A stretch of DNA of 64,000 bases from assembly GCF_004014875.1 (NCBI RefSeq), contig NZ_CP034929.1:248001-312000 (forward strand), written 5' to 3'. The translations under genes were made by a program, and so were the position numbers. This DNA is from Nocardioides yefusunii (GTDB lineage Bacteria > Actinomycetota > Actinomycetes > Propionibacteriales > Nocardioidaceae). The notes beneath the pieces were generated by a model. It ran no database searches. It was not told the DNA's origin and saw only the letters and a program-made list of their open reading frames with translations. Shown here piece after piece: positions 13,345 to 57,284 of this stretch (position 1 is the stretch's first letter; each line of letters begins with the position of its first letter).

Positions 13345-13365
13345 CTCGCGGCTGGTGGAGCGTGG

Positions 13366-14154: not shown

Positions 14155-14190
14155 GCCGCACAGTGTGCACCGCGAGTGGGCGTCGTGGTG

Positions 14191-14200: not shown

Positions 14201-14252
14201 AACCTTTTTCGAGGTGTGGACGCCACGGGACGTCGTTCAGCGCTGGCTCTGG

Positions 14253-14310
14253 GCAATTGTCGGATTGATGCGGTGACACGCCGTCGACGTGGCATCAATC
14301 CGACAGTTGC
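14253..14310. repeat. Dispersed palindrome family 2, copy A
   Basis: GCAATTGTCGGATTGATGC (14253-14271) pairs with 14292-14310 with one wobble in 19 bp. The 20-nt centre holds a small CACG/CGTG stem. The related copy is at 24359-24413, and both are followed by GGAGCGGAGCGACGC (14315-14329 here). This copy lies between divergent genes, so it cannot simply be a terminator. Confidence 0.75.
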
Positions 14311-14401
14311 GCACGGAGCGGAGCGACGCTGAGGCCGGGAGCAGGGCCAGCGTGCTGGGACGCGGTGCGAGCGCGCAGAAGCCGCGAACTAAAGTTGCGC
14401 C

Positions 14402-16339
14402 ATGACTACCACCACGCACTCGCAGTCCCCCATGGAAGGTGGCGCGGTGCAGGCCGCACTCGCCGAACTCCAGGGACACGAGGCGTGGGCCCTCGTCCGA
14501 CTCTCCAAGCGGGAGCCGGGCGACCCCGACGTCGTGACCTTCATCGGCGGACCCCGCACCGAGCTCGACTCGATCACCGACATCCCGCTCGAGACCGGCG
14601 TCCCGGCCGAGGGCCGTCGTCATGACCGCCTCGTCGCTGTCCCGTTCCGTCAGATCCGTGAGCGTGGCTTCGACGTCATCGACGACGGCACTCCGCTTGT
14701 CTCCATCGACATCGAGACCGAGCTCCGCTTCGGAGTCGCCGACGTCGTCGCCGCGATCGAGGACAACGGCGTCGAGTTCACCGACCGCGGCGGCTTCCGC
14801 ACCTCCGACGAGGACTACGCCAAGGTCGTCGAGTCGATCATCCGTGACGAGATCGGCCAGGGCGAGGGCGCCAACCTCGTCGTCGGCCGTCAGTACACCG
14901 CCGTCGTCGCCGACTGGGGCGTCGACAAGGCCCTCACCGTCTTCCGTCGCCTCCTCGAGCGTGAGCGCGGCGCCTACTGGACGTTCTGCTTCTTCACCGG
15001 CGACCGCTTCCTGATCGGCGCCTCGCCCGAACGCCACGTCTCCGTCACCGGCGGCGACGTCCGGATGAACCCGATCTCGGGCACCTTCCGCGTCGGGGGC
15101 CGCTCGGCAGCCGAGATGAAGCCGGCCCTGCTCGACTTCCTCGCTGACGAGAAGGAGATCTACGAGCTCTTCATGGTCGTCGACGAAGAGCTCAAGATGA
15201 TGTGCGATGTCTGCGACCAGGGCGGCATGGTGCTCGGTCCGTTCCTGAAGCCGATGACGCACCTGATCCACACCGAGTACCTGCTCGCCGGGCGCTCCAG
15301 CCGCGACACCCGCGAGATCCTGCGCGACACCATGTACGCGGCCACCGTCACCGGCTCCCCGGTGGAGAACGCCTGCCGCCTCATCAGCCAGTACGAGGAC
15401 CGTGGCCGCGAGTACTACGCCTCCGCGCTCGCCCTCTTCGGTCGCGACGCCACGGGCCAGCCCACCCTGGACTCGCCGATCGTCATCCGTACCGCCGACG
15501 TGAAGCCCGACGGCGCCCTCACCGTCACCGCCGGCGCCACCCTCGTGCGCGACTCCGACGCCGCCTACGAGGTCGCCGAGACCCACGCCAAGGCAGGCGG
15601 CATCCTGTCGGCCTTCGGTCTTGTCCCCGCCGCGGGCGCACCGTCTGCCGGACTCGCCGAGCTCACGAACGACGAGGACGTCCTGATCGCGCTCCAGTCG
15701 CGCAACCGACGCCTGAGCACCTTCTGGCTCACGGACCAGGCCGGCGCCACGCCCGACGCCTCGTTGAAGGGCAAGCGCGTCGGCATCCTCGACGGCGAGG
15801 ACGACTTCGTGAACATGATCGTGCACGTCATGCGGGTGCTCGGAATGCAGAGCGAGGTCATCCGTCACGAGGCGTGGACCGAGACCGCGCTCGACGACTT
15901 CGACCTCGTCATCATCGGCCCCGGCCCCGGAGACCCGCGCGACGGCGACGCCGCCAAGATCGCGACGTTCCGCGCCGCGACCGCACGTCTGCTGGAGCGC
16001 AAGCAGAAGTTCTTCTCCGTCTGCCTCGGCCACCAGACCCTGTGCCACGTCCTCGGCCTCGACCTCGCATTCAAGGACATCGTCTTCCAGGGCACCCAGG
16101 CCACCGTCGACCTCGGTGGCCGCACCGAACGCGTCGGCTTCTACAACACGTTCGTGGGACGCGTCGGCGAGAACGGTCTGCCCGAGGGAGTCACCGTCCA
16201 CGCCGACCCCGAGACCGGCGACATCCACGCCCTAGAAGGCCCGCACTTCCGTGGCATCCAGTTCCACGCCGAGTCGATCCTCACCGAACGCGGCTTCGAC
16301 CTGCTCGGTGAGATCGTCACCGACCTGCTGGTCGACTGA
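14402..16339 (+). CDS. PhzE-type aminodeoxyisochorismate/anthranilate synthase (fused)
   Basis: A 645-residue fusion of a chorismate-binding domain (about residues 1-430) and a class I glutamine amidotransferase (about 460-645). The amidotransferase triad is Cys541 (VCLGHQ), His622 and Glu624 (QFHAES). The synthase part has NPISGTFR and TVTGSPVENAC, and the amidotransferase has ERVGFYNTF. These are closer to PhzE (2-amino-2-deoxyisochorismate synthase) than to TrpE. It moves glutamine ammonia onto chorismate; whether pyruvate is then released (anthranilate) or not (ADIC) cannot be told here. TAAAGT lies 6 nt before the ATG, so the mRNA is probably leaderless. No other phz-type gene is in the window. 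Confidence 0.88.
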   Translation: MTTTTHSQSPMEGGAVQAALAELQGHEAWALVRLSKREPGDPDVVTFIGGPRTELDSITDIPLETGVPAEGRRHDRLVAVPFRQIRERGFDVIDDGTPLVSIDIETELRFGVADVVAAIEDNGVEFTDRGGFRTSDEDYAKVVESIIRDEIGQGEGANLVVGRQYTAVVADWGVDKALTVFRRLLERERGAYWTFCFFTGDRFLIGASPERHVSVTGGDVRMNPISGTFRVGGRSAAEMKPALLDFLADEKEIYELFMVVDEELKMMCDVCDQGGMVLGPFLKPMTHLIHTEYLLAGRSSRDTREILRDTMYAATVTGSPVENACRLISQYEDRGREYYASALALFGRDATGQPTLDSPIVIRTADVKPDGALTVTAGATLVRDSDAAYEVAETHAKAGGILSAFGLVPAAGAPSAGLAELTNDEDVLIALQSRNRRLSTFWLTDQAGATPDASLKGKRVGILDGEDDFVNMIVHVMRVLGMQSEVIRHEAWTETALDDFDLVIIGPGPGDPRDGDAAKIATFRAATARLLERKQKFFSVCLGHQTLCHVLGLDLAFKDIVFQGTQATVDLGGRTERVGFYNTFVGRVGENGLPEGVTVHADPETGDIHALEGPHFRGIQFHAESILTERGFDLLGEIVTDLLVD

Positions 16340-42020: not shown

Positions 42021-45000
42021 ATGGAACGCCATCGCGGCGCGCTCAGGCGCGCCCTGGGAGCGATGACGAGTGCAGCAGTCCTGGTCGGAGCGATGGCGAG
42101 CGTCCCCGCGCTCGCCGCTCCCACCACTGTGGACGACTCGTCGGACACCCCCTTCACCACCACCTCCGCCGCCGCCGTCGCCCCGACGGCCCCCGGCACC
42201 CGGTCCGGCAACGACGTGGTCACCTGCGTCGGTCCGACCGGCGAGGTCACGACCTCGATCGCGTGGCGAGCCGCCGTCGACGGACGAGCAGTCACCGTCA
42301 ACGCCTACGGTGCCGATGACCTGACTCGCGGCATGAAGTTCGACATCCGTGCCACAGCCACCGTGGACGGCGAGACCGTACGGCTCTCCGGCGCGGTCGG
42401 TGCAGACGACGACCGCGCCCCGACCACACTGGGCGGTGAGCGCACTGCGGACGCCAGCGCCGGAACGATCACTCTGAATGAGTGGCTCATTCGCACCTTC
42501 GAGGACGACGGCCTCGTCATGCCGTACACGTGTGCCCCGACCGGCAGCCCGGACCCGATCCAGGCGGACGCGGGCTCCCCGACTGAGCCCGGGACCCCGG
42601 CGCAGGCTGAGGGCCGAGCCAAGGCCGGCACCGGGGCCAGCGCCCAGGCGTTGGTGGCCTCGCCCACGGTACGTGGAACCATCGCCCTTCCGGCCCCGAG
42701 CGAGTACGGCTCGGTGACTGTCGACGTCTACCGTCGCGTGATCGACGAGTGGGACGACAGCGCGTACTACGAGTGGTACGACTGGCTCTGGTTGCCTGCG
42801 TGGGACGCGACGTCCGTCGACTACGGCTTCGATCTCCCCACCGGCTCCTATCGGATCGGCGTGCGCAGCGATAGCGGCGACTGGCCGACGACCTTCAACG
42901 GAGGCGCGACGCGTCTGGGATCGGCTGCCGACATCGCGGTCGACGATGCGTCGACGACAGTGGTCGACTTCGCTCCGCAGCTCGCTGCGCGGGTGCAGGG
43001 CACCATCGTGATGACCGGGGAGCGCGACGCTCGGATGCCGGACCCGGGCGCGTACGTGCGCCTCACCCGCGTCGGCGACGCGAGGGACTGGGATTCCGTC
43101 GCGGTGGACGAGGACGGCTCGTTCGCCTTCGGCTCGCTGCACGCAGGTGAGTACTACCTCACCGTCGAGTCGAAGACTGCTGCGTTCCCCTCGCGCGACA
43201 ACGTCCGACGGGTCACGCTCGCACCGGATGACCTCGTCGACGATGTCCGGGAAGAGGTCGTGCTCAACCCGCTCCTCAGCGGTCGTGTCACCAACTCCGC
43301 GGGCGCGCCCCTGCAGTGGGCCGGTGTCTCGGCCTCGACGGTCGGGGAGGACGAGGACGGGTACGTCGCGCCTCTCGACGGTCGCTACACCACGACCGAC
43401 GAGGACGGCCGCTACGCGCTCTTCGCTCCGCGATCCTCTGAGCAGGTCATCGAGTTCCACGGCACAGACGAGTACGTCGGCCGTTACTACGGCGGCGGCA
43501 CCTCGTGGGTCTCCGCGGAGCGGGTGTCGGTCGGTGAGAGGTCGGTCGGCCAGATCAACATGGTTCTGCTGCGCGGGGCCAAGATCACCGGTCGTGTGAT
43601 CCTGCCGGACGGACACTCGGTCGAGGACGTCCGGGTCACTGCTCGTCGTCTCGACGAGGAGTCCTACACGGATTACTACGAGTACTCGCTCGACTGGGGG
43701 CAGGAGACCGAGTTGGCCGAGGACGGTAGCTACGTCCTGCGGGGGCTGGAGCCCGGGCGTTATGCGGTCGAGTTCAGAGGAGGCTGGGGCAGCTCTCTCC
43801 TCGAGGTCTTCCACGACGGTTCCACGGACGTGGGGATCGAAGGCCTGATCATCGTCGAGGCGGAGTCGGTCACAGAGCTTCCTCCGGTGACCATGGTGGC
43901 TGGTAGCACGGTCTCCGGATCCGTGGTTGTTCCAGAGGGGACGGAGCTGAGTGAGCTCTTCGTCGACCTCTATCGCGTCGAGGACGGCGAGTCGCGTCAC
44001 GCAGGTGGCACCTGGGTCGTCGACGACGGGACGTGGACCGTCCTTGGTCTGGGCGCAGGTGACTACGTCGTGAGGGCCTCGCCCGACGCGTACTACTCCG
44101 AGGTGCTTGCGACCTACTACGGCGGCAGTACGTCCCTGGAGGACGCCAAGGTCGTGACCGTGGGGAGCGGAGGCGCGCTGACGGGTCTCGAGATCGTCAT
44201 GGCGACCGCGGGCCGGTTCGTGGTCAGGGCCGAGATGCCTGAGGGCGTGGATCTGGACGACGTCCGAGTCACGCTCTCTGACGACGAGTACATGGACATG
44301 ACGCAGTGGTGGGACGCAGATGCCGGCGAGGCGGTCTTCCGCGGTGTGCGGCCCGGTCGCTACGTCGTGCAGTTCTCCGGCGGCGGACTGCTCCCGGAGT
44401 TCGTGGGCGGGACTCGTCTCCGTGACGACGCGACCTGGTTCCCGATGGCGGCAGGAGGGGCCGTCGAGGTCGAGGGTCGGCCCGTCATGGGTGGGCGTGT
44501 GAGCGGGACGGTCGCCTCCCGTGGCGGCTCGGAGCGTCCGCTCGAAGTGAGCCTGATGACCATGGAGGACGAGGGGTGGTACTACCATGTGACGCAGGAC
44601 GTGGAGATCGGCGAGCCGTTCAGCTTCGGTGGGCTGGAGGCCGGTACCTACACGGCCCGGCTCTCCGACGCGTGGAACGGCGAGGTCTACGCCTGGTACG
44701 GCGGCAGCAGCGGCAGCACCGCGCAGTCCTTCGACGTCGCACGTGGACAGAGGCTCGAAGGCATCGACCTGGTCCTGCCGGAGTTCGGTGCGGCTGCTGG
44801 CACGCTCGTCGTCCCCGAGGGACTGGACCCGGACGACTTCGCAGTCGTGGCTCACCGGTGGGACGGGACAGAGTGGGCCTGGGGCATCCGGATCCACCCC
44901 GACGAGGAGGGCCACTGGGCTGCTTCGCTGTTCCCCGGCACCTACCGGTTCATCGGCTACAGCCACCACCACGAGTTCGTCCTCAGCGACTCCGACGCAC

Positions 45001-46121
45001 TGGCGGCCGCGACCGACGTCGAGGTGAGCCCCGAGTCGCCGGCCGACGCCGTCACGGTGCAGATCGAGCAGGGACGCCTCTCCGGCCACGTCACCTTCCC
45101 CCGGGAGGGCGGCGGAACGGGGTACGTCAGGATCGAGCGACGGGTTCCCGGGGAGGACGCCTGGGTCGAGACCTCCGTCGAGGTCGACGACGAGGGGAAC
45201 TGGACCGCGTGGGGTGCTCCTGCCGGTGTCTACCGGATCGCCTACGACGGTGACCGTTGGCTGCCCCTGACCTGGCTCGGCGGCAACGACCGGGTCGGAG
45301 CCACCTTGGTCACCCTCGCATCGGGCGAACGCCGCGACGACCTCGACATCACGGTCAGGAACGGCGCGACCCTGAGCGGCCGGTTCAACTTCGAGGTGGC
45401 TCCGGGCGAGCTCGGGTACCGGTACGCCCACGTGGTCCTGATGCAGCGGCAGAGCGACGGCACGTGGGACGACATCCGCACCTTCCCCGACGCGCAATGG
45501 GATCCCGTCGTGTTCTCCGGGCTCTCTCCGGGCACCTACCGGCTCCGCGGGGAGGGGGCGCATCCGTTCCGCTCCTACGCCGGCTACTACGGAGGTGTCA
45601 CCTTCGAGGAGGCCATCGACATCGAGATGGGCACGGAGACCGTCAACCTGGGCACCGTCCTGGTCCTGCTCGCGCGGGACCTGAGTGATGAGGACGATCC
45701 GGTTGGGCCGAGCCCTGAGCCGAGCCCTGAGCCGACGCCTGAGCCGACGCCCACGCCTGAGCCCGAGCCGAAGCCGACCATCGAGCCGAAGCCCACGGCG
45801 AAGCCGGTTCCCAAGCCGGTGGTGAAGGTGGTCAAGCTCTCTGCCAAGCCCAAGGTCACTGGGACGGCGAAGGTCGGCAAGACCCTCAAGGTGTCGAAGG
45901 TGAAGGTGAAGTCCACTGACGCGAAGGCGAAGGTGACGATCACCTACCAGTGGCAGACGAAGAAGGGCAAGAAGTTCGTCAAGGTCAAGGGCGCCACGAA
46001 GTCCAAGCTGAAGTTGACGAAGAAGCTCAAGGGCAAGCAGGTGCGTCTGCGGATCACGGTGAAGGCCAAGGGCCACACCACGCTCGTGCACACCACTGTG
46101 TGGAGCAAGAAGGTCGCCTGA
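42021..46121 (+). CDS. Large modular secreted protein A, about 10 repeats
   Basis: A 1366-residue exported protein. Residues 1-31 are a Sec signal (cleavage after ALA). From about 200 to 1225, about ten beta-sandwich modules recur every 91-106 residues; each ends in a YYGG-like turn (clear at about 491, 701, 894, 1191) followed by a hydrophobic strand, as in carboxypeptidase-regulatory-like/CNA-B-type folds. A Pro/Glu/Thr/Lys linker (1227-1271) leads to a basic Ig-like C-domain (1273-1366, [20 protein letters not shown]). No LPXTG or membrane anchor. ATG has GGAG 6 nt upstream. Likely a cell-surface or matrix protein; ligand unknown. Confidence 0.87.
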   Translation: MERHRGALRRALGAMTSAAVLVGAMASVPALAAPTTVDDSSDTPFTTTSAAAVAPTAPGTRSGNDVVTCVGPTGEVTTSIAWRAAVDGRAVTVNAYGADDLTRGMKFDIRATATVDGETVRLSGAVGADDDRAPTTLGGERTADASAGTITLNEWLIRTFEDDGLVMPYTCAPTGSPDPIQADAGSPTEPGTPAQAEGRAKAGTGASAQALVASPTVRGTIALPAPSEYGSVTVDVYRRVIDEWDDSAYYEWYDWLWLPAWDATSVDYGFDLPTGSYRIGVRSDSGDWPTTFNGGATRLGSAADIAVDDASTTVVDFAPQLAARVQGTIVMTGERDARMPDPGAYVRLTRVGDARDWDSVAVDEDGSFAFGSLHAGEYYLTVESKTAAFPSRDNVRRVTLAPDDLVDDVREEVVLNPLLSGRVTNSAGAPLQWAGVSASTVGEDEDGYVAPLDGRYTTTDEDGRYALFAPRSSEQVIEFHGTDEYVGRYYGGGTSWVSAERVSVGERSVGQINMVLLRGAKITGRVILPDGHSVEDVRVTARRLDEESYTDYYEYSLDWGQETELAEDGSYVLRGLEPGRYAVEFRGGWGSSLLEVFHDGSTDVGIEGLIIVEAESVTELPPVTMVAGSTVSGSVVVPEGTELSELFVDLYRVEDGESRHAGGTWVVDDGTWTVLGLGAGDYVVRASPDAYYSEVLATYYGGSTSLEDAKVVTVGSGGALTGLEIVMATAGRFVVRAEMPEGVDLDDVRVTLSDDEYMDMTQWWDADAGEAVFRGVRPGRYVVQFSGGGLLPEFVGGTRLRDDATWFPMAAGGAVEVEGRPVMGGRVSGTVASRGGSERPLEVSLMTMEDEGWYYHVTQDVEIGEPFSFGGLEAGTYTARLSDAWNGEVYAWYGGSSGSTAQSFDVARGQRLEGIDLVLPEFGAAAGTLVVPEGLDPDDFAVVAHRWDGTEWAWGIRIHPDEEGHWAASLFPGTYRFIGYSHHHEFVLSDSDALAAATDVEVSPESPADAVTVQIEQGRLSGHVTFPREGGGTGYVRIERRVPGEDAWVETSVEVDDEGNWTAWGAPAGVYRIAYDGDRWLPLTWLGGNDRVGATLVTLASGERRDDLDITVRNGATLSGRFNFEVAPGELGYRYAHVVLMQRQSDGTWDDIRTFPDAQWDPVVFSGLSPGTYRLRGEGAHPFRSYAGYYGGVTFEEAIDIEMGTETVNLGTVLVLLARDLSDEDDPVGPSPEPSPEPTPEPTPTPEPEPKPTIEPKPTAKPVPKPVVKVVKLSAKPKVTGTAKVGKTLKVSKVKVKSTDAKAKVTITYQWQTKKGKKFVKVKGATKSKLKLTKKLKGKQVRLRITVKAKGHTTLVHTTVWSKKVA

Positions 46122-46139
46122 CCTGATTGTTCGTCGTGG

Positions 46140-46178
46140 ACGGGAGCCCTCGGACCTGTGTGGTCCGGGGGCTCCCGT
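46140..46178 (+). terminator. Terminator after repeat protein A
   Basis: A 17-bp stem with one wobble (46140-46156 with 46162-46178, arm ACGGGAGCCC) around TGTGT, 18 nt after the stop codon. Confidence 0.8.
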
Positions 46179-46294
46179 GCGTCTGGGGCACGGTCCTCGG
46201 TGGACTGAGTAGCGGCGCTCATGGCGTTCGCCGCCGCTCTCTCCTAGCGTCGGCGGAGAGCCGGGCCGCGGGCCCGCACGGGGGAGGAAGCTCG

Positions 46295-47380
46295 ATGGGA
46301 CGACGTTCTACGCAGAGAAGTTCGGCGAAGACAGGGGCTGCGGCGACTGCACTGCTGCTCGTGGTGACGGGGTTCAGCGCCGGCGGTGTGGGGCAGGCGG
46401 CGGAGCCGGGCGCGACCGCGACGATGTCGGGCCGGGTGAGCGTCCCTGCGGGCGAGTCGGTCACCGCGGTCCTGGTGCATGTCCGGAGTCAGGCGGTGGA
46501 CGGGGTCCGTCCCTCGGTCCCGGACCCGTCCCCGGTGAGGCCTGCGGCCGACGGCAGGTGGAGCGTCGCCGGTCTGGGCGCCGGGACCTACCGCGTCGAG
46601 TTCGAGACCCGTCCCGAGAGCAACGTGCTCGGTGAGTGGTACGGCGACGGGCGCTGGTCGGGAGAGGCCAAGGACGTCGTGGTGCCCGACGGGGGCAGGG
46701 TTGCCGGTGTGGACGAGGCCCTTCCAGCGGGCGCCGTCGTGACCGGGACGGTGCGTGCCGCGTCGGGGGCCCCGGTCGAAGGGGTCTGGGTTCTCCCGTT
46801 CGAGGAGAACCACTTCTACGGGGTCCAGGAGTTCTCGATGGTCGCCGGTGCGTACACCGACCATCAGGGCCGCTACACCCTCAAGCGTCTCCGGGGCGTC
46901 AACCACCGGATCGAGGTCGCTGACCTGCACGGGCGCGGGTACGGGCGGTCCTTCCTCGGCGGTGGGCGGACCTTGGCCCAGGCGCGTGACTTCGCGTTGG
47001 TCGCGGGACGCGTCCACACCGGATTCGACCACCGGTTCGCCGTCGGCCCGGGGTCGGAGAAGCCGCGCGTGGAGCCCGGTCCGAAGCCGAAGCCGAAGAA
47101 GATCGTCGTCCGGACGAAGCCGAAGGTGAGCGGCAAGCTCGCGATCGGTCGGACGCTCACAGCGACCCGGGGCGCCTACACGCCGGGCGCAGCGAAGGTC
47201 ACGTTCCAGTGGCAGGTGAAGAAGGCCACCAAGGCCGTCGCGGTCAAGGGCGCGAAGACGTCGAAGCTGAAGCTGACGAAGAGGTTCAGGGGCAAGCAGG
47301 TGCGGGTGCGGGTCACGGTGAAGGCCAAGGGCCACGCCACGCTCGTGCGCACGACGGCGTGGAGCAAGAAGGTCGCCTGA
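46295..47380 (+). CDS. Modular secreted protein B, 2 repeats
   Basis: A 361-residue exported protein related to protein A. Signal sequence to about residue 35 (AAATALLLVVTG core, GQAAEP end). Two modules have the family turn (EWYGDGRWSGEAKDV and SFLGGGRTLAQA). A short Lys/Pro linker leads to the basic Ig-like C-domain, with YQW as FQW and the same ending TTAWSKKVA. Start ATG with GGAGG 7 nt upstream. TAGCGT (46245-46250) is a possible -10. Confidence 0.85.
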   Translation: MGRRSTQRSSAKTGAAATALLLVVTGFSAGGVGQAAEPGATATMSGRVSVPAGESVTAVLVHVRSQAVDGVRPSVPDPSPVRPAADGRWSVAGLGAGTYRVEFETRPESNVLGEWYGDGRWSGEAKDVVVPDGGRVAGVDEALPAGAVVTGTVRAASGAPVEGVWVLPFEENHFYGVQEFSMVAGAYTDHQGRYTLKRLRGVNHRIEVADLHGRGYGRSFLGGGRTLAQARDFALVAGRVHTGFDHRFAVGPGSEKPRVEPGPKPKPKKIVVRTKPKVSGKLAIGRTLTATRGAYTPGAAKVTFQWQVKKATKAVAVKGAKTSKLKLTKRFRGKQVRVRVTVKAKGHATLVRTTAWSKKVA

Positions 47381-47411
47381 GGCTCCATGCTTCCCGCCTG
47401 CGGTGACGACG

Positions 47412-47450
47412 ACGTCCCCGGTCCGTACCTCTGGTGCGGGCCGGGGACGT
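47412..47450 (+). terminator. Terminator after repeat protein B
   Basis: ACGTCCCCGGTCC (47412-47424) pairs with 47438-47450, one wobble in 13 bp, followed by TTGTTCTTGT. The T-rich tail makes it a canonical intrinsic terminator. Confidence 0.85.
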
Positions 47451-47513
47451 TGTTCTTGTCGACACTTACCGCACAGTTAACCCGGGCGTAACAGGCGCGT
47501 TCTGCGCCCTTCT

Positions 47514-47528
47514 TGTTCGCAAAGAACA
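47514..47528. promoter_or_regulatory. Candidate operator upstream of desaturase operon
   Basis: TGTTCGCAAAGAACA: inverted arms with a 5-nt spacer, 69 bp upstream of the ferredoxin reductase start. Same arms and spacing as at 39865-39879 before the PucR-type gene. Confidence 0.5.
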
Positions 47529-47596
47529 AAAAAGAGGGTGAAGGTTCACTTCCTCAGGTCGAGAAAAACGGCTTCTGTCGACGCAGACTGTTCATC

Positions 47597-48769
47597 GTGA
47601 CCGCTACTGCATCCGAGCCCATCGCCCCGGCCCCCGCTGCCGCCGACGTGGACCCGCGCGCCAACTCCGGACGCAAGCCGCGCCTGCGCGACCGCGCCGT
47701 CAAGCTGGTCGAGGCGGCCACCACTCCGTTGATGCCGGCCGACTACATGGACCTCTTCGCCCCGCTCCGTCCCGGCGCCGAGCTCCGCGGACGCATCATC
47801 AGCGTCACCCCCGAGACCGCCGACGCCGCCACCATCGTCATCCGTCCGGGCGCAGACTGGGCCGGCCACGTGCCCGGCCAGTACGTCCGCGTCGGCATCG
47901 ACGTCGAGGGCGTCCGCCTGTGGCGTGCCTACTCGCTGACCCACGGTCCGCGCGGCGACAAGAACATCTCGATCACCGTCAAGGCCGTGCCCGACGGTGT
48001 CGTCTCCCATCACCTCGTGCACCGCTGCCCGGTCGGCAGCCTGGTCCACCTCGAGCCCGCCGCCGGCGAGTTCGTCATGCCCGACGTCAACGGCGGCAAG
48101 TACCTCATGGTCACCGCCGGTTCGGGCGTCACTCCGGTGATCGGCATGCTGCGCAACCTCTTCCCGGTCGCCGACTCCGGCGTCGTGAGCCTGGACCGCA
48201 GCAAGAACTTCGACATCACCGTCATCCACGTCGCGCCGTCCGAGCCCGACTCGATCTTCCTGCGCGACCTGCAGGCGCTCGACGCCGCCGGCAAGATCCG
48301 CCTGATCGCCCGCTACGACGACACCCACGGCTTCCTCGACGTCAACGACATTCCGTCGATGGTCCCCGACGTCGCCGAGCGCATCACCCTGGCCTGTGGT
48401 CCCGGTGGCCTGCTCGACGCCCTCGGTGAGCACCACGCCCGCCACGGCCTGCCGCTGATCGTGGAGCAGTTCCGCACCAGCCGCGTCGAGGCCGGCGAGG
48501 GCGGCACGGTCGTCTTCGAGAAGTCCGACGTGACCCTCGAGATCGACGGGGCCACCACCCTGCTCGACGCCGCGGAGGAGGCCGGGATGCTCATGCGTTC
48601 GGGCTGCCGCATGGGTCTCTGCATGGGATGCCTCGTGCCACTGGAGGAGGGCACCGTGCGCGACCTGCGCAACGGCGACCTCACCACCGCGGTCCCCGGT
48701 GAGTCCGGCGCGGTCAAGATCCAGACCTGCATCTCCTCGCCCGCCGGCCCCTGCCGCATCTCCAAGTAA
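47597..48769 (+). CDS. Ferredoxin reductase for acyl desaturase (Rv3230c-like)
   Basis: A 390-residue oxidoreductase: FAD-binding barrel with RAYSLT, NAD(P)-binding domain with GSGVTPVIGM, and a C-terminal plant-type [2Fe-2S] domain with Cys337, Cys342, Cys345 and Cys378. It passes electrons from NAD(P)H through flavin and iron-sulfur to the desaturase encoded next, as Rv3230c does for DesA3. GTG start with CAGACT 7 nt upstream (leaderless type). 76 nt separate it from the desaturase gene. Confidence 0.93.
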   Translation: MTATASEPIAPAPAAADVDPRANSGRKPRLRDRAVKLVEAATTPLMPADYMDLFAPLRPGAELRGRIISVTPETADAATIVIRPGADWAGHVPGQYVRVGIDVEGVRLWRAYSLTHGPRGDKNISITVKAVPDGVVSHHLVHRCPVGSLVHLEPAAGEFVMPDVNGGKYLMVTAGSGVTPVIGMLRNLFPVADSGVVSLDRSKNFDITVIHVAPSEPDSIFLRDLQALDAAGKIRLIARYDDTHGFLDVNDIPSMVPDVAERITLACGPGGLLDALGEHHARHGLPLIVEQFRTSRVEAGEGGTVVFEKSDVTLEIDGATTLLDAAEEAGMLMRSGCRMGLCMGCLVPLEEGTVRDLRNGDLTTAVPGESGAVKIQTCISSPAGPCRISK

Positions 48770-48845
48770 CGCCGAGCGCGCCCACCCCAGGCGCCGCTCC
48801 CACACACTTCCGCTCCCGCATCACCATCCCGTTCGGAGGAACACG

Positions 48846-50108
48846 ATGACCGTCATCCAGAACAAGGACGCCAACCCGATCGCCCACCTGTCCAAGGAGG
48901 ACATCGCGGAGATCGGTCGCAAGCTCGACGCGATTCGTCAGGAAGTCGCTGACTCCCGAGGCGAGAAGGACGCGGCCTACATCCGTCGCGTCATCGCCAC
49001 CCAGCGTTACCTCGAGATGGCCTCGCGCGGGGTGCTGCTCTTCTCGAAGTTCCCCCCGGCCTGGATCCTGGGCACCGTCGGCCTCTCGGTCTCGAAGATC
49101 CTCGAGAACATGGAGATCGGCCACAACGTCCTCCACGGGCAGTGGGACTGGATGCGCGACCCGAAGATCCACTCCTCCACCTGGGAGTGGGACAACGTCA
49201 CCCCGTCGGAGGCGTGGAAGCACTCCCACAACGAGGTCCACCACACCTACACGAACATCGTGGGCAAGGACAACGACCTCGGCTACGGCATCATGCGCGT
49301 CGACGAGGACCAGAAGTGGTACCCGATGTACATCGTGCAGCCGGCCTGGAACTTCATCAACGCCTGCTTCTTCCAGTACGGCATCGCGGCCTACGACCTC
49401 GAGCTCGGCAAGAACCTCAAGAAGCCCAAGGACAAGCGTCCTGAGGGCTTCGCCGAAGAGGTCAAGAAGGTCAAGACCAAGATCCGCAAGCACATGACCC
49501 GCGACTACGTGATCCACCCGGGTCTCTCGCTGGTCACCGGCTCGGCTCTGGAGACCATGGCCGCCAACCTGGTCGCCAACTGGGTCCGCAACATGTGGAC
49601 CCACTCGGTCATCATGTGCGGTCACTTCCCCGAGGGCGTCGAGACCTTCGAGAAGGAGATGCTCGACGAGGACGAGTCGCGCGGCGACTGGTACATCCGT
49701 CAGATGCTCGGCTCGGCCAACATTTCCGGTTCCAAGGCCATGCACATCATGACCGGCAACCTGTCGCACCAGATCGAGCACCACCTCTTCCCCGACCTCC
49801 CGTCGAACCGGTACGCCGAGATCCGGGTCAAGGTGAAGGCGCTGTTCGAGGAGTACGACCTCAACTACCTCGAGCGTCCGCTGGTCCCGCAGGTCTACTC
49901 GGCCTGGCACAAGGTCTTCCGTCTCTCGCTGCCCAACGGCTTCACCGAGACCACCACGGTCAAGAACCTCCCCAAGCAGCTCGGTCTGCTCACCAAGATG
50001 GTCACCGGTGACAAGCGCACCCGTCGTGCGCTGCAGGCCCACCTCGACGCCAAGGTCGCCCGCAAGCGCGCCAAGGTCGCGAAGTCGGACGTCACCACCG
50101 CCGCCTGA
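48846..50108 (+). CDS. Membrane fatty-acid desaturase (DesA3-like)
   Basis: A 420-residue di-iron membrane desaturase. Three histidine boxes: HNVLHG (about residues 93-98), HSHNEVHH (125-132) and HQIEHH (308-313). Hydrophobic hairpins lie before box 1 and between boxes 2 and 3. The family inserts a cis double bond, usually delta-9, into acyl-CoA or lipid chains, adjusting membrane fluidity. ATG with GGAGGAA 4-5 nt upstream. Basic Lys/Arg-rich C-terminus. A perfect terminator follows. Confidence 0.95.
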   Translation: MTVIQNKDANPIAHLSKEDIAEIGRKLDAIRQEVADSRGEKDAAYIRRVIATQRYLEMASRGVLLFSKFPPAWILGTVGLSVSKILENMEIGHNVLHGQWDWMRDPKIHSSTWEWDNVTPSEAWKHSHNEVHHTYTNIVGKDNDLGYGIMRVDEDQKWYPMYIVQPAWNFINACFFQYGIAAYDLELGKNLKKPKDKRPEGFAEEVKKVKTKIRKHMTRDYVIHPGLSLVTGSALETMAANLVANWVRNMWTHSVIMCGHFPEGVETFEKEMLDEDESRGDWYIRQMLGSANISGSKAMHIMTGNLSHQIEHHLFPDLPSNRYAEIRVKVKALFEEYDLNYLERPLVPQVYSAWHKVFRLSLPNGFTETTTVKNLPKQLGLLTKMVTGDKRTRRALQAHLDAKVARKRAKVAKSDVTTAA

Positions 50109-50136
50109 CGCACAGCCTGAGGCATCACGCTCCACT

Positions 50137-50173
50137 GAACGCCCCCGCAGGGTTGCCACTCGCGGGGGCGTTC
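50137..50173 (+). terminator. Terminator after desaturase operon
   Basis: GAACGCCCCCGC (50137-50148) pairs perfectly with GCGGGGGCGTTC (50162-50173), 28 nt past the stop. Confidence 0.88.
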
Positions 50174-50380
50174 GTGCGTCGTGGCGCAGCACCCTCGTCT
50201 GGACCAGCCGGTTCGCCTCGGGGCTGGAACACCCGGGGCCGGTCGCGAATCCCTGCGGGAGCCTGAGCAGGCGACCTAACATCTGGGGGACCCCTGATGT
50301 TCACATCAGCGCTGGACGTCCTCGGCAACCGTGCGGGGGCGTCGCCCCGTTAGTGGCGACACGGCGATCAGGGGGATCGC
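50174..50380 (+). promoter_or_regulatory. Upstream region of repeat protein C with two small hairpins
   Basis: CTGATGT/ACATCAG (50294-50309, loop TC) and GTCGCC/GGCGAC (50341-50360) lie in the probable 5' leader. They could be regulatory RNA structure or chance in GC-rich DNA. No known riboswitch consensus was recognised. Confidence 0.3.
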
Positions 50381-52732
50381 ATGCAGCCAGTCAGCATCGG
50401 GACGAAACGGGTGGTGATGGCGGCGTTGGCCATGGCCACTGCGTTGGCGGGGTGGTGCATTCCTGTGGGTTCACACGCCGCGACGGGAATGGGTTTCATC
50501 TCGGGCACTGTGACTGTGGGGCCAGGTGTGGACCGATCCGAGGTTGAGGTCATCGCCTACATCCATGGAGAACTGGGTGACGAAGCTGGGGACCCCACGG
50601 GGATTTTCGGGCCGCTCAGCCACTGGAGCGGTGAAGACTCTGACGCCGAGAGAGTCACCCTGAATGCAGCGGGAAGCTACCGGTTCGATGGAGTTCCGGA
50701 CGGGCAGTACTACCTCGAGTTCCGTTCCAAGGTGTGGCGCTCCACCTGGGTCCCTCGGTACCTGGGCGACACGGTCGACGAAAAGCAGGCGACCTTGGTC
50801 ACTGTTAAGGCCGGTGCGGCGGTCACCGGAGTCGACATGTACGTGAGCCCGTGGGGCTCGATCAGCGGGACGGTGCGGGCGTCCTCGGACGTCGATCTCT
50901 CCAATGTCAGCGTTCGCGCGGCGGTTGTGCCATCGGCCGGTGGGCCCCCTAACTGGAACAACGCGTTGAACGGTCGGGTGGACAGGTCCGGCAAATTCAC
51001 GGTTCCTTCGGTACGGGCTGGCTCCTACGTGTTGCGCGTCGATGCGTCCCGCGGGGTGGCCACGACGGTGCACCCCGACGTCGTGGACGTCGGCTACGAG
51101 GAGAACGTCACCGGGGTAGACCTCACCGCTGACCGTGACGCGCAAGTTGTCGGATCGGTCGAGTCCTTCGATGGGCGCGACACCGGGTACTTGCACCTGC
51201 GTGTGTACAGGGAAAACCACAACGGGGAACGCGAGCATGTGGAAGAACTGAGTTACTTGATGGACGGCTTCTGGCGCAACTTCGAGATGTACGGCCTCCC
51301 TCCCGGCCGCTACTGGTTCGAGGTCGTTGACGAGGCCAGGTGGATGTCGCCGACGTGGATCGGCGGGAATGCTGACCCGGCCAGCGGGGTCGCGGTCGAC
51401 CTCGTTGCTGGCGACCGGGTGGACCTCGGCAACACCGTGCTGCATGCCTACGGAGTGGTGCGGGGCAACGTGTTCGACGCTGTGTCCGGCGAGCCCCGCT
51501 ACGCGGAGGCGGTGGTCGCCGAGCGCAGGGTGTCGTCGTCGGACGGGGCGGTGTCATGGGTGGAGGAGGGCAGCGACGGTGCCAGGGAAGACGGTTTCGT
51601 CCTGCACGGGCTGCCCGCAGGCACTTATCGGCTGAAGGCATCGAGCAACTACGGGCTGACCACCTGGTACACGGGTGAGGCGACTGGCAGCCTGGACGCC
51701 TCGGATGCTTACCTGTTCACGGTGGAGCTCGACCAAGTGCTCGAGGGTCTCTCGCTTGTGATCTATCCCGCGGCCAACATCAGCGGGAACATCCCTTCAC
51801 CGTCCAGCCTCGCTGCCGGGGCGGTGCAGGTGGTCCTGTACGCACAGCAGAGCGACGGCACCTTCGCCGAAGCGGCGCGGACCACGACACGGGCAAGTGC
51901 GGAGTACTACGGGTTCCCTTCTCTGCCGGCTGGGCAGTACGTCCTGGGATTCACGGTGCTCGAGCGGGACGGTTCGGTCCGTGAAGGATCGGTCGGCTTC
52001 TACTCGGACGAAGGACCGGTGGCCACGCTGGAGCAGGCGCACGTGCTGACGCCCGAGGTGGGGGGCAGGACGTTGTTGATCAACCTGTCGGATCTGGTGG
52101 TCCCTACGCCTACGCCTACGCCTACGCCGACGCCTACGCCGACGCTGACGCCTACGCCGACGCTGACGCCTACGCCGACGCTGACGCCTACGCCGACGCT
52201 GACGCCTACGCCGACGCTGACGCCTACGCCGACGCTGACGCCGACGCCGACGCTGACGCCTACGCCGACGCTGACGCCTACGCCGACGCTGACGCCGACG
52301 CCGACGCTGACGCCGACGCCGACGCCTACGCCGACGCTGACGCCTACGCCGACGCTGACGCCGACGCCTACGCCGACGCTGACGCCGACGCTGACGCCGA
52401 CGCCGACGCCGACGCCCGACCCGAAGCCCACGCCGAAGGTGATCAAGCTGCTCACGGCGGTGAAGGTCTCCGGCAAGGCGAAGGTCGGCAAGACCCTCAA
52501 GGTCGGCAAGGTGAAGGTGAAGTCCACTGACGCGAAGGCGAAGGTGACGATCACCTACCAGTGGCAGACGAAGAAGGGCAAGAAGTTCGTCAAGGTCAAG
52601 GGCGCCACGAAGTCCAAGCTGAAGTTGACGAAGAAGCTCAAGGGCAAGCAGGTGCGTCTGCGGATCACGGTGAAGGCCAAGGGCCACACCACGCTCGTGC
52701 ACACCACTGTGTGGAGCAAGAAGGTCGCCTGA
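50381..52732 (+). CDS. Modular secreted protein C, 5 repeats and Pro-Thr stalk
   Basis: A 783-residue exported protein. Sec signal to about residue 34. Five modules of about 100 residues end near 127, 230, 326, 429 and 540 (turns such as TWIGGNADP and TWYTGEATG). Residues 575-679 are a Pro-Thr-(Leu) stalk encoded by an 18-bp repeat. The C-domain (about 690-783) is the basic Ig-like domain, identical at DNA level to that of protein A over 225 bp. No sortase motif. ATG with GGGGG 6 nt upstream. Confidence 0.87.
52103..52417 (+). repeat. 18-bp tandem repeat encoding Pro-Thr-Leu stalk
   Basis: The unit ACGCCTACGCCGACGCTG (Thr-Pro-Thr-Pro-Thr-Leu) recurs with insertions or losses of ACG-CC(T/G) pairs. 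Such arrays change length by slippage, so the stalk length probably varies between strains. Confidence 0.92.
52508..52732 (+). repeat. 225-bp exact duplicate of 45897-46121
   Basis: The last 225 bp of repeat protein genes A and C are identical base for base, while the genes differ elsewhere. The block covers most of the basic C-terminal domain and the stop codon and ends there. Confidence 0.9.
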
Positions 52733-52747
52733 AGACAGGCGGCGAGG

Positions 52748-52834
52748 AATGTGCGGGAGATGTTGCTCGGCGCTCGGCGCTCGGCGCTCGGCGCTCGTCG
52801 GTCGTCGGTCGTCGGTCGACATCTTCCGCACATT
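52748..52834. repeat. Inverted repeat enclosing two heptanucleotide arrays
   Basis: AATGTGCGGGAGATGT (52748-52763) pairs with ACATCTTCCGCACATT (52819-52834), one wobble. The 55-nt loop contains GCTCGGC four times (52765-52792) and GTCGGTC three times (52797-52817). It lies 16 nt after the stop of repeat protein C, the place of a terminator, but the loop is unusual. Confidence 0.85.
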
Positions 52835-52950
52835 CTGCGTAGGTCACGGGTGAAGTGACGCGTCCCCGATATCGGGTGTCCCTGCCGCGATCACGCCGTG
52901 CAGGCGAGGAGTCGCACTAGCGTTCGTCTCCGGCTCGGAGAGGAACGCAG

Positions 52951-54648
52951 ATGACCACCACCCCGCTCGTGAGCGTCCCCGGACGCCGGAGCGCTCGCTC
53001 CCTGCTGGCGGCGCTGGTCTCGGTGGCTCTCCTGCTCACCTCGGCCGCACTGCTCCTGCCGTCAGCGGTGGCTGCGGAGACCCGGCTGGTGAGCGGAAGC
53101 GTCGTGCTGCCGGTCGGAGTGTCACCCGACGACGTCGAGGTGCGTGCCTCGAGCCGCAGCCTCGACCCCGAGACCGGGGTCCCGCGCTGGAGCTCGGACG
53201 CCGAGTCGGGGCTCGCCCTGCTCGGCGAGGCCTGGGTGTACCAACTCCGGGTTCCGGCAGGGGAGTACGTGATCGGTGCGGTCGACTTCGGATCGCGGGC
53301 CGCCCCCACCTGGTACCCCTCCGTGCCCAGCGAGGAGGAGGGCAGCACGGTCACGGTCGGCGCCTTCGACGTCGTCCTGGGGGCGCTGCGACTGCAAGCG
53401 TTCAGCAGCATCGGCGGCATCGTCCAAGTGCCTGCCGCCGCCGCCCACCGCAACGTCAGCGTCCACGCCTTCCGCCGTACCGCGGCCGGGACGTGGCAGG
53501 AGGAGGCCGAAGCGGCGGTTGACGAGGACGGCGCGTACCGCGTCCTCGACCTGCGTGCGGGCACCTACCGACTCCAGTTCAGCTACGCCGGCGTCGCCCA
53601 GAGCGGGGGCTGGTATGCCGGGCCGGGACGAGCACCGGTCGTGCAACGCGACAAGGGCGCCGACGTCGTCCTGGGGCCCGCCACCGACCTCGACACCGTC
53701 GACGTGGTCCTCGGCAAGGGGGCTGACGTGACCGGGCGGCTCCGCACCGTCGCGGGCGCAGCGGTCACCGCCAAGGACGTCCGGGTCTCGGCCTACGAGG
53801 CGTGGACCGACCCGTGGGGCGTGCGCCGATGGCGTCCCGTCGTCACCGTCGGGCCAGCCGGCAACGGCACCTACGCGATCCGCGGACTGCCCGCGGGCAC
53901 CTACCGGATCGGCGTCGAGGACCGGCCGGGTCGCTACTTCGCGGTCTTCCACCCCGGTGCCAGCACCGTCGACTCCGCGCGCAGCCTCACCCTCGCCGAC
54001 GGTTCGACGCTCCGCTCGGTCGACTTCACCCTCGACCGCGGCACCACCGTCAAGGGCAAGGTCACGGTGCCCACAGGGATCGCGACCACCAGCGTCCGGG
54101 CCGACCTGTTGCAGAAGGTCGGGACGACGTGGAAGGCCACCGCGAGCACCTGGGTGGGGGCCGACGGCAAGTACGCCCTCACCGGGGTCCCGGCCGGGAA
54201 CTACCGCGTCGCCCTGGCCCACGACTCCGGTGCACTGACGCCGTGGTTCGTGGGGAAGGACGGCCCGGTGAGTGCGCTCGGGGCCGCCCGTACCGTCACG
54301 GTCGGTCGGAGCGCGAGCCTCACCTTCGACGCGGTCCTCACCCGACGCGGCACGCCGTTGCCGCAGGTCAAGGTGGTCTCCCGCCCCGGCCTCCGTGGCA
54401 CCGCCCGGGTCGGCCGCACGCTCACCGTGAAGGGTGGTCGGTACAGCCCGTCGGGCACGACCGTGAAGTACCAGTGGTTCATGAAGAAGGGGTCGAAGGT
54501 CGTCGCGATCAAGGGCGCGACCAAGCGCAGCGTGAAGCTCCCCAAGGCGACCAAGGGCCGCACGGTGCGGCTGCGCGTCACCGTCTCGCGTCCCACGCAC
54601 CGCCCAGTGAGGGTGACGACGCGGTGGAGCCGTGCCGTCCGCCGGTGA
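52951..54648 (+). CDS. Modular secreted protein D, 4 repeats
   Basis: A 565-residue exported protein of the same family. Signal sequence to about residue 40 (core LLAALVSVALLLTSAALLL, end AVAAE). Four modules with turns such as GGWYAGPGR, AVFHPGAS and PWFVGKDGP. The C-terminal Ig-like domain (about 470-565; KYQWFMKKGSKVVAIKGATK) is basic but Arg-richer and more diverged than in A and C. No stalk. ATG with GAGAGGAA 6-7 nt upstream. Confidence 0.86.
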   Translation: MTTTPLVSVPGRRSARSLLAALVSVALLLTSAALLLPSAVAAETRLVSGSVVLPVGVSPDDVEVRASSRSLDPETGVPRWSSDAESGLALLGEAWVYQLRVPAGEYVIGAVDFGSRAAPTWYPSVPSEEEGSTVTVGAFDVVLGALRLQAFSSIGGIVQVPAAAAHRNVSVHAFRRTAAGTWQEEAEAAVDEDGAYRVLDLRAGTYRLQFSYAGVAQSGGWYAGPGRAPVVQRDKGADVVLGPATDLDTVDVVLGKGADVTGRLRTVAGAAVTAKDVRVSAYEAWTDPWGVRRWRPVVTVGPAGNGTYAIRGLPAGTYRIGVEDRPGRYFAVFHPGASTVDSARSLTLADGSTLRSVDFTLDRGTTVKGKVTVPTGIATTSVRADLLQKVGTTWKATASTWVGADGKYALTGVPAGNYRVALAHDSGALTPWFVGKDGPVSALGAARTVTVGRSASLTFDAVLTRRGTPLPQVKVVSRPGLRGTARVGRTLTVKGGRYSPSGTTVKYQWFMKKGSKVVAIKGATKRSVKLPKATKGRTVRLRVTVSRPTHRPVRVTTRWSRAVRR

Positions 54649-54752
54649 GAGCCGCCGGTGAGAGCAGCCGGTGAGAGCACCGCAGTGACCACGGACACCG
54701 TCTGTGGGGAGAGCGTCAGACATCGCGAGCGAGGCCCACTATCCTTCGCGAC

Positions 54753-54818
54753 ATGTGTCTCGCTTCCTCTGCCGATGCCCTGCACGCCGGTCGTCCTCGA
54801 CTGTGCCGGGCGGGCTGA
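54753..54818 (+). CDS. Possible 21-residue leader peptide
   Basis: A short frame MCLASSADALHAGRPRLCRA-G ending TGA, 3 nt before the ATG of the beta-propeller gene. TATCCT lies 7 nt upstream of its ATG, the leaderless-promoter spacing seen elsewhere in this window. The downstream gene has only a weak Shine-Dalgarno, so translation of this peptide could deliver ribosomes to it. Two cysteines (positions 2 and 18) are notable. May be chance. Confidence 0.35.
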   Translation: MCLASSADALHAGRPRLCRAG

Positions 54819-54821
54819 GCC

Positions 54822-56378
54822 ATGGGCTGGGCACTGATCTGCCTCCTCGTCGCGCTCTACGTGGCCGTCGGCCCGTGGGGTCTGGTGGCGGCCGCAGCGC
54901 TGCTCCTGGTCCCGCAGATTCGTGAGCGGGTCCCGCGGCCGCGACTCACCCGCAAGGGCGTCGGGATCGGTGCGGCCGTCGTCGTCGCCGTGTCCGGAAT
55001 CGTCGTGGTCCTGCCCGACGGTTTCCTGAGTGTCCCCACCGCCGGCGGCCTCGTGGTGCTGCCCGGCTACGAGGGCCGCCAGCAAGCAGCGAAGCCGCTG
55101 GAGACCGAAGAACCGGCCCAGCACCCCTGGGTCGCCGACTACGCACTCCACAACCCGGGCCCGCTCGGTGACGCCCCGGTGGCCCGCAGCGGTTGGTACG
55201 GGTTGGAGGGCTGCCGCAACCTCAAGGCCGACTCGCGCGGTCGGATCGTGGCGATCTGCAACGACCCCCGCAGCCCCGTCGTCCGCGTCATCGACGCCAA
55301 GACCCTGCGCAGCGCGGCCAGCAAGCGCCTGCCGGGCGTGCCTGACACCGACGACGAGGCCCGCGCCCACGCCTGCGACGGCACCCACGGCTACCTCGAC
55401 AACGGGGACCGGCTGGTGATGGCGACCACCGACCAGCGGATCCTCGCGATCGGCACTGCCGACGCCAACGGCGACCCCGACCTCACCGTCGACGAGACCT
55501 GGAACCTCAACCGCATCCTGGAGAAGGACGACTGCCTGGTCACGGTGGCACCTGACTGGAGCGGCAAGATCTGGTTCGCCGCACTGTCGGGTCGCGTCGG
55601 CGTCCTCGACCCCGTTGCAGGTGGCGCCCAGATCGCCGACCTCGGGGCCCGCGTCACCCGACAGTTCGCCGTCGACGAGCAGGGCGTCTACGTCACGTCC
55701 GACGAGGCCGTGCACCGGCTCGACATCACCGCTGCCGGCGTCCAGGTGGGCTGGACCCACCGCTACGAACGCGGTGTCGAGGTGAAGTCGGGGCAGTTCA
55801 CCCAGGGCAGCGGCAGCGGCCCCACGCTCGTCGACGGTGACCTTCTCGCCTTCACCGACAACGCCGAGCCGCGGATGCGGGTCGTCTTCCTCGACCGCTC
55901 CAACGGCTCCGAGGTGTGCAGCGCCGGCGTCTTCGACGGAGGCGAGTCCTCCACCGACACCCCGCTCGTCTCGACCGGTTCCGGTGTGGTCGTCGTCAAC
56001 GACCACGGCGCCGAGTCCACGGCGTCCACGTTCTGGGGATTCGCCACCGCCGGGGGCCTCGCGCGCGTCGACCAGAAGGAAGGCACCTGCACCGTCACGT
56101 GGCGCAGCGACGTCTCTGCTCCCGACGTGCGTCCGGTCATCTCGTGGCGTACCGGGCAGCTCTACACCTACGCCAAGCGCCCCACCCTGTGGGGAGTCCC
56201 GGCCTGGTACCTCGTCGCGATCGACGCGGAGTCGGGGCGGACCAGCTTCACCGTCCGTGGCGGAACCGGTCGCGGACTCGAACCGCGCGAGAGCGTCATG
56301 ACGCTCGACGACTCCGGGCAGGCGTTCGTCGGTGTGGTCGGAGGCCTCGTCCGGGTCAGGGACCGCGTCCGCGACTGA
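54822..56378 (+). CDS. Membrane-anchored beta-propeller protein
   Basis: A 518-residue protein. Two hydrophobic segments at the N-terminus (about residues 3-31 and 47-68) are followed by a large domain with repeated beta-sheet blades (VVRVIDAKTLRS, RVGVLDPVAGGA, RVVFLDRSNGSE, YLVAIDAESGR), the pattern of PQQ/YVTN-type propellers. It contains several cysteines, perhaps disulfide-linked. It sits within the repeat-protein cluster and may act with those proteins at the surface. Function unknown. Confidence 0.8.
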   Translation: MGWALICLLVALYVAVGPWGLVAAAALLLVPQIRERVPRPRLTRKGVGIGAAVVVAVSGIVVVLPDGFLSVPTAGGLVVLPGYEGRQQAAKPLETEEPAQHPWVADYALHNPGPLGDAPVARSGWYGLEGCRNLKADSRGRIVAICNDPRSPVVRVIDAKTLRSAASKRLPGVPDTDDEARAHACDGTHGYLDNGDRLVMATTDQRILAIGTADANGDPDLTVDETWNLNRILEKDDCLVTVAPDWSGKIWFAALSGRVGVLDPVAGGAQIADLGARVTRQFAVDEQGVYVTSDEAVHRLDITAAGVQVGWTHRYERGVEVKSGQFTQGSGSGPTLVDGDLLAFTDNAEPRMRVVFLDRSNGSEVCSAGVFDGGESSTDTPLVSTGSGVVVVNDHGAESTASTFWGFATAGGLARVDQKEGTCTVTWRSDVSAPDVRPVISWRTGQLYTYAKRPTLWGVPAWYLVAIDAESGRTSFTVRGGTGRGLEPRESVMTLDDSGQAFVGVVGGLVRVRDRVRD

Positions 56379-56468
56379 GGTTCGGTAAGCGGACACCGTC
56401 CATACCCACTCTGAGCAGGCTCATCAGGTCTCTGGCCGGTGGAGACCCCGGAGCCTAGGGTCAACCCT

Positions 56469-57284
56469 GTGAGGGTCTCGGGGGAGTCCTCGGCCGTGCG
56501 TCGGTGTGGGGTGATGCCTGCGTCGAGTGGCCGGAGGGCAGTGGTCGTTCTGGTCGCGTCGGCGCTGGCGTGGACTCCGCTGCTGTGGAATCCGCCGGCG
56601 TGGAGTTCGCTGGCGACGCCGTCGGCGAGTGCCACGCATGCCACGAGTGCAGCACCGGCCAGGACCCCTGTCGTCGCACGCGTCGTCGCCGATGTCCGGG
56701 GCGGTCAGGCAGGCGCCCTGTCCACCACGGTGGCCAAGGTCGACCTGCAGGTGCGGACCCGCGCCGGACGGTGGAAGCGGGCCACGGGATGGTCGCACCG
56801 CACCACGGGCCGACGCTTCCGCGAGGTCGACCTGCGCGGAGTGCGTCCCGGCGTCTACCGCGTCGTCGTGACTCATCCGCACTACCTGGTGGCCACCACC
56901 GCGCCGTTCCGGGTGCGGGGGAGCGCGCCGGTGAAGCTCGCTCCGATCCGTCTTGACCGGGGAGCCCGGGTGACCGGTACCTACGTCGCGGACGGCGGCT
57001 GGTCGATGGAGCATCCGCCGACGGCGCGCGCCTACCTCCGCACCCGCACGTCGTCGGGGAAGTGGACGTGGAAGCTGGTCCGGGAGGCCCGGACCGTCGC
57101 GCTCGAGGACGACGTCACCGACGCCTTCGACCTGCGCGGCCTGCCCGCGGGTACGTACGCGGTCTGCATCCACGTGCGCACCACCGGCTGTCTCGGCGGC
57201 TCCTCGCCACGCACCGCTCAACAGGTCAAGGTGGCCGCCCGCTCCACCGTCGCGGACCTCGTGATTCGTCGAACGACGCTCTGA
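56469..57284 (+). CDS. Small secreted protein E, related to the modular family
   Basis: A 271-residue exported protein. GTG 56469 has TAGGGT 7 nt upstream (leaderless type); an internal ATG at 56514 is an alternative. After a long Arg-containing n-region and a hydrophobic core (VVVLVASALAW), one to two beta modules appear, with VRPGVYRVVVTHPHYL and GLPAGTYAVCIH matching the strand before the turn in proteins A-D. It has no stalk and no basic C-domain. Last member of the cluster. Confidence 0.72.
   Translation: MRVSGESSAVRRCGVMPASSGRRAVVVLVASALAWTPLLWNPPAWSSLATPSASATHATSAAPARTPVVARVVADVRGGQAGALSTTVAKVDLQVRTRAGRWKRATGWSHRTTGRRFREVDLRGVRPGVYRVVVTHPHYLVATTAPFRVRGSAPVKLAPIRLDRGARVTGTYVADGGWSMEHPPTARAYLRTRTSSGKWTWKLVREARTVALEDDVTDAFDLRGLPAGTYAVCIHVRTTGCLGGSSPRTAQQVKVAARSTVADLVIRRTTL

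Follow-up and report, generated by a model that had tools for sequence, protein, structure and literature searches.

How might a bacterium keep long secreted proteins at its surface when these carry no recognised anchor? The question is raised by five modular proteins, A to E, encoded in the window, a stretch of 64,000 nucleotides of the Nocardioides yefusunii genome. An ORF check located their frames exactly where the original prediction had placed them, the start codons of A, B and E each being picked among several candidates. The genes and domains of this locus listed next are all on the + strand. Protein A (42021..46121) consists of a signal peptide, 10 CarboxypepD_reg modules, a Pro-rich linker and a basic C-terminal domain (C-domain, 45843..46121). 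Protein B (46295..47380) has a signal peptide, 2 modules, a Pro/Lys-rich linker and the basic C-domain (47102-47380). Protein C (50381..52732) has a signal peptide, 5 modules, a long Thr-Pro repeat linker (52106-52436) and the basic C-domain (52454-52732). Protein D (52951..54648), which has a relative in P0002 (39% identity over 98%), consists of a signal peptide, 4 modules, a short linker and the basic C-domain (54364-54648). Protein E (56439..57284) contains two partial modules, is basic throughout and is without the C-domain. Three flanking backbone genes are interspersed: a FAD/2Fe-2S reductase (47513..48769), which lies outside the modular protein family, a fatty acid desaturase (48846..50108), and a conserved gene for a membrane-attached beta-propeller protein (54822..56378). 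The reductase-desaturase pair (47513-50108) we take to resemble the mycobacterial Rv3230c-DesA3 type. The DNA that encodes the long Thr-Pro-Leu linker of C (52106-52436) is itself repetitive, with tandem units of about 12/18 nt, and the length of the linker is likely to vary between strains.

The predicted modular build was borne out. An HMM made from the modules counts 10, 2, 5, 4 and 2 copies in A to E, partial copies being one in A and both in E. The module, about 96 residues long, already has a Pfam name (CarboxypepD_reg, PF13620). Whole-protein scores are 85.2 (A), 36.6 (B), 49.1 (C) and 45.5 (D) bits, above the curated cut-off of 32.3; E falls under this cut-off with 17.9 bits, and so do most single modules when scored separately. 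The YYGG-like turn attributed to the modules was found, as a loose pattern, at 4 places in A, 1 in B and 3 in D, but at none in C and E. The N-terminal stretch is the sole strongly hydrophobic segment in A-D; that of E is under the hydrophobicity threshold used. As claimed, LPXTG is absent from A-E, A-D are without a C-terminal hydrophobic segment, and the sortase-substrate combination of motif, hydrophobic stretch and basic tail was accordingly not found in either set. The claimed absence of wall-binding repeats also held, Pfam listing none of those families for A-E. The idea of WxL proteins was discarded, the WxL domain (PF13731) having 0 matches in this genome. By our reading, A-E match no adhesive-type Pfam family above cut-off, NCBIfam gives only weak matches to adhesin models, all sub-cut-off, and a PDB sequence search with D reaches a best E-value of 0.03. 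The repeated stalk domains by which fibrillar adhesins are recognised are present, as 2-10 tandem modules.

The last 95 residues or so of A-D form, as originally proposed, one homologous domain, with 60% (B), 93% (C) and 44% (D) identity to the end of A; it is absent from E. The net charge is +25 to +28 over the last 90 residues. In A, Lys makes up 29.5% of the last 95 residues vs 0.8% elsewhere; at the end of D, Arg (16.8%) exceeds Lys (11.6%). Base composition is ruled out as the source of this charge, because Lys is rare in the rest of the same proteins. The last 225 nt of the A and C genes (45897-46121 and 52508-52732) are identical and end exactly at the stop codon. Directly past the stop the similarity is at background, upstream it fades within 45 nt, and the protein bodies differ. 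This pattern fits gene conversion or a recent copying of the end domain; a sharp edge at the stop would be expected, since conversion cannot pass the end of homology.

Structure prediction, proposed earlier as a check, led us to assign the C-domain to the SCAB1/AIR9-A9 type of Ig domains. The AlphaFold2 models, from a four-sequence alignment, are all-beta (best pLDDT 84.4, five models down to 66.5). In a Foldseek search the two top matches are SCAB1 (TM 0.60 and 0.56, E-value about 0.003), no PDB match being obtained at E 0.001 or better. With hhalign, the C-domain matches an alignment of internal bacterial Ig repeats with 98.7% probability; of its 12 members, 4 match Pfam IG_AIR9 and 2 SCAB-Ig. 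For the A-D ends themselves, the Pfam listing, which extends to E 1, contains neither SCAB-Ig nor IG_AIR9. Because of the fold match to SCAB1 and the profile match to repeats of the IG_AIR9/SCAB-Ig kind, we class the C-domain as a common bacterial Ig repeat that has diverged and become basic; the same two results rule out a new fold.

Counting the C-domain in the genome, a further proposed check, yields 18 stretches with the A-D model: the four in A-D and fourteen in six other frames. Our own HMM recovered four of these six (L019-L022) and nothing from L023 or L024; in the short loci it gave a weak match in L015 and none in L016. Judging by their appearance, two of the frames presumably encode a CAP-like secreted protein and a propeller-like protein; two further ones are a frame of 428 residues and a long one that holds numerous tandem copies. 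In L019 (minus strand, 2350-7830), many tandem A9-type Ig copies are followed by a Lys-rich histone-like tail and not by a basic Ig domain. A model of internal copies finds matches at E 1e-5 in 117/149 genomes of the family and 52/148 of the class, and at E 1e-8 in 25/296 of the phylum; the one diderm genome searched gave no match of the Ig repeat. A profile search of genome contigs with the C-domain itself returned one distant locus. Domain partners in the matching proteins include CHAP, NlpC/P60, glucosaminidase and PG_binding (all of peptidoglycan hydrolases), RCC1 repeats and a nucleotidase domain; a subtilisin also carries the Ig domain. In these other proteins the domain often stands in tandem, and it is also found internally and N-terminally. 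Such placements rule out a C-terminal-only signal, and the suggestion of a new sorting signal gave way to that of a folded Ig module.

What sets the ends of A-D apart is the charge, and we asked how it is distributed among the copies of the repeat. A first census comprised 81 distinct proteins. The last copy was more basic than those before it in 32/33 proteins where it lay at most 12 residues from the stop, and in 16/25 where it lay more than 60 residues before it, figures obtained with a model trained on basic terminal copies and hence biased. Because of this bias the census was repeated with a near-neutral model, rebuilt from twelve low-charge internal copies. The terminal copy was then more basic in 28/32 proteins of the first set (+17.3 vs +4.2 charges per 100 residues), in 23/23 from 40 further loci (+19.2 vs +4.6) and in 2/3 of the phylum set. 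Pooled, this amounts to 53/58 proteins (about +18 vs +4), counts that ignore kinship: related genomes are over-represented, and some pairs are near-identical orthologues (e.g. L149, L152, L162) and not independent events. Frames with a missing stop were dropped (none in the first and the 40-loci sets, 4/23 in the phylum set, where 2 duplicates were also removed); single-copy frames (6/49, 5/45 and 10/17 in the three sets) were listed and left unpaired. Outside the organism's own family, the terminal copy is more basic in 10/11 proteins from 8 families. In the 23 proteins with at least 4 copies, the charge per 100 residues is +0.7 in the first, -0.3 in the middle, +5.8 in the penultimate and +16.0 in the last copy; from first to last, Lys rises from 3.1 to 9.9% and Arg from 4.2 to 10.5%, and Asp and Glu decrease. 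Thus, in proteins that end in this Ig domain, the final copy far exceeds the other copies in positive charge, a new regularity. Terminal basic copies are also present in peptidoglycan hydrolases (P0016, P0018, P0021); in the subtilisin P0010 the terminal copy is not more basic.

Some of this trend reflects a charge that climbs along the protein to its C-terminus, because last copies that are not terminal are more basic too: 11/11 in the first near-neutral set (+10.3 vs +3.3), 12/16 in the 40 further loci (+5.1 vs +1.9, p 0.09) and 3/4 in the phylum set. This milder rise favors a reading in which the C-domain is just the last spacer of freely secreted proteins, with a charge that serves secretion, folding or solubility. 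Such a spacer would also suit A-D, which have no known anchor, and a repeat that many secreted proteins contain as a plain tandem module. We nevertheless consider it unlikely, in view of the large step at the last copy, which other secreted proteins do not have. The charge of the last 60 residues is -0.4 in other secreted soluble proteins near the loci (52 frames) vs +28.6 in 14 modular Ig proteins, in a comparison of 526 frames called and sorted by crude rules of our own, some of them mis-sorted (e.g. desaturases as secreted). The value for the neighboring frames rules out a basic end as a general property of the secretome. The positional charge pattern and the basic end would agree with a holding on anionic wall polymers, as far as sequences can tell.

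Proteins that continue beyond their last Ig copy offer a second view of such ends. Among 47 tails listed, 20 were scanned in Pfam, and 12 of these match Big_3_5 at E <=0.01 (6 above the cut-off). The last 60 residues of the Big_3_5 tails average about +20 per 100, with a range of 7 to 42. The L216 tail, at first flagged as membrane-like, is Big_3_5-like. The other scanned tails are three DUF3152 (+7 to +15), one GDSL hydrolase (-2), one SLH (0), one weak match to a carbohydrate module (+7) and two without match (-3 and -13). The Ig-repeat proteins with a C-terminal DUF3152 (L178, L185, L229) have ends that are mildly basic only. In the protein with SLH repeats, a known wall anchor, the Ig copies are acidic, and P0008, which combines CWB2 repeats with CarboxypepD_reg-like modules, has a neutral end. 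These two may serve as natural controls, single cases that prove nothing by themselves.

The best reading of these data, which we hold with about even confidence, is a non-covalent, charge-based retention on anionic wall polymers by means of a polycationic terminal cap. A-D would be secreted through their N-terminal signal-type segment, by a route suggested by that segment. The rod consists of the 2-10 prealbumin/transthyretin-like CarboxypepD_reg modules, neutral to acidic, followed usually by a Pro-rich linker. The basic terminal Ig domain would pair by charge with anionic wall glycopolymers and so keep the protein in the wall, with the linker spanning the wall and the rod pointing outward for adhesion or matrix building. 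The working part would be the charge and not the fold, so that any Ig-like domain standing at the end would be basic. A-E themselves are secreted stalk proteins that have expanded in this lineage, at a locus conserved in Nocardioides; together with the retention proposed here, this forms a proposition that we would place midway between doubt and belief. More tentative, and in our estimate rather doubtful, is a generalisation to a fold-independent retention device in actinobacterial repeat proteins lacking a recognised anchor, in which the last beta-sandwich (A9-type Ig or Big_3_5) becomes a polycationic cap docking on anionic wall polymers. For the cap we count the step at the last copy, the basic Big_3_5 tails, the Pro-rich linkers, the occurrence in hydrolases and the SLH/CWB2 controls. 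Pro makes up 20% or more of the linker in 13 of the 17 proteins with both modules and C-domain (four from the window, one public relative and twelve from genus loci). Pro-rich linkers beside wall anchors are a feature of Gram-positive surface proteins. Against it we count the short, Pro-poor linker of D, the lack of a C-domain in E, the P0010 copy, and the two sortases of this genome. Since sortases are present, covalent anchoring was available, and the organism does not itself dictate that LPXTG be absent. A member of a teichoic-acid-type polymerase family was found in this genome and in 22/25 genomes searched, which bears on the plausibility of wall binding only.

The opposite charges within one protein raise the possibility of a dipolar self-assembly, in which each acidic rod would bind the basic end of a neighboring molecule to give an extracellular matrix or cell-cell links. 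The module part carries -10.5 (A) and -6.5 (C) charges per 100 residues vs about +30 in the C-domain, and several paralogues occur at one locus; over the 17 proteins, the module part ranges from -0.5 to -13.2 and the last C-domain from +8 to +39. However, B and D have the same basic end although their module parts carry almost no net charge (-1.0 and -0.5), and proteins that lack such modules can have basic terminal copies too, which makes self-assembly improbable. A quite improbable target of the basic end is some other polyanion, such as extracellular DNA or an acidic biofilm exopolysaccharide: charge alone cannot distinguish polyanions and the many Lys/Arg residues form no conserved binding motif, but no specific pointer to DNA was found, and the occurrence in peptidoglycan hydrolases points to the wall.

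The beta-propeller protein had been included in the proposed surface system. It is indeed predicted to be a membrane protein, with helices at 2-63 followed by beta strands (pLDDT 88.3), and Foldseek matches it to designed propellers, BamB and YxaL. At E 1e-20, propeller matches occur in 80/118 genomes of the genus, some of them weak or partial. We compared 42 loci around propeller homologues (40 listed, G023 and the window), four of which are cut by contig ends. The gene backbone recurs in many of the 42; we take it to consist of a PucR-type regulator, reductase, desaturase, propeller, isomerase-like and NHL-type genes. Many Nocardioides loci have the reductase-desaturase pair conserved next to the propeller gene. 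Modular C-domain proteins are encoded in 9/41 other loci, in seven between desaturase and propeller and in two solely beyond the propeller. These nine all belong to the 21 loci with a desaturase homologue, and none is among the 20 others. The same locus encodes one 10-module protein in G023 and three modular proteins in G076. G023 has its propeller homologue broken into two frames (L054, about 13199-14804). Because 32/41 other propeller loci are without a modular gene, a partnership of the propeller with A-E, let alone an obligate one, is unsupported. What stands of the proposed undescribed surface system is a set of surface-type proteins without recognised anchor; the propeller link does not stand, and both domain types belong to known families. 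That the C-domain is a sorting signal proper, which an enzyme would recognise and cleave at the C-terminus, possibly together with the propeller protein, is highly improbable: the extreme C-terminal position in A-D and their nearest relatives and the seven loci with the modular gene between desaturase and propeller would suit it, but the domain is also tandem, internal and N-terminal, it has no short motif and no C-terminal membrane segment, and the propeller is present in loci without modular genes.

The modules and the Ig fold are known families, but the charged end piece seems to be a feature without a name that many related proteins have in common. If the retention reading is true, wall retention could be predicted throughout the phylum by a simple and testable rule on charge and position, and the end domain would be a possible display tag. 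Even without an anchoring role, a basic end domain common to two domain types would need another explanation. A literature search on wall binding, actinobacteria and C-terminal domains that are basic or rich in lysine met no such cap in titles and the starts of abstracts, most subscription papers lying outside the search, which is weak evidence of absence. Table 1 of PMC5817068 covers wall-attachment domains (LPXTG, LysM, WXL, SH3, SPOR, PGB, CWB1/2, SLH, ChW) and, within that table, has no Ig-type entry; the likeness to A-E is in the proposed role only, the holding of secreted proteins on peptidoglycan or wall polymers, and none of these domains is matched in A-E. According to excerpts of PMC9210967, 21,247 fibrillar-adhesin-like proteins are predicted in Actinobacteria, in which wall anchoring stands out less as a trait than it does in Firmicutes. 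In the terms of those excerpts, A-E resemble these proteins in being secreted and long, with repeated stalk domains, but are without a recognised adhesive domain or anchor. With the prealbumin-like stalk modules of CarboxypepD_reg, SdrD_B and SpaA (PF13620, PF17210, PF17802), they have in common the tandem rod of small beta modules, A-D passing the PF13620 cut-off; A-D differ in having no LPXTG or pilin motif and in combining the rod with a basic Ig end. The C-domain is similar in fold and profile to SCAB-Ig and the A9 Ig of AIR9 (PF16709, PF23197), whereas the A-D ends are far more basic and miss the Pfam models, and the plant proteins are cytoskeletal. A functional parallel to the basic cap is found in the basic SLAP domains of lactobacilli.
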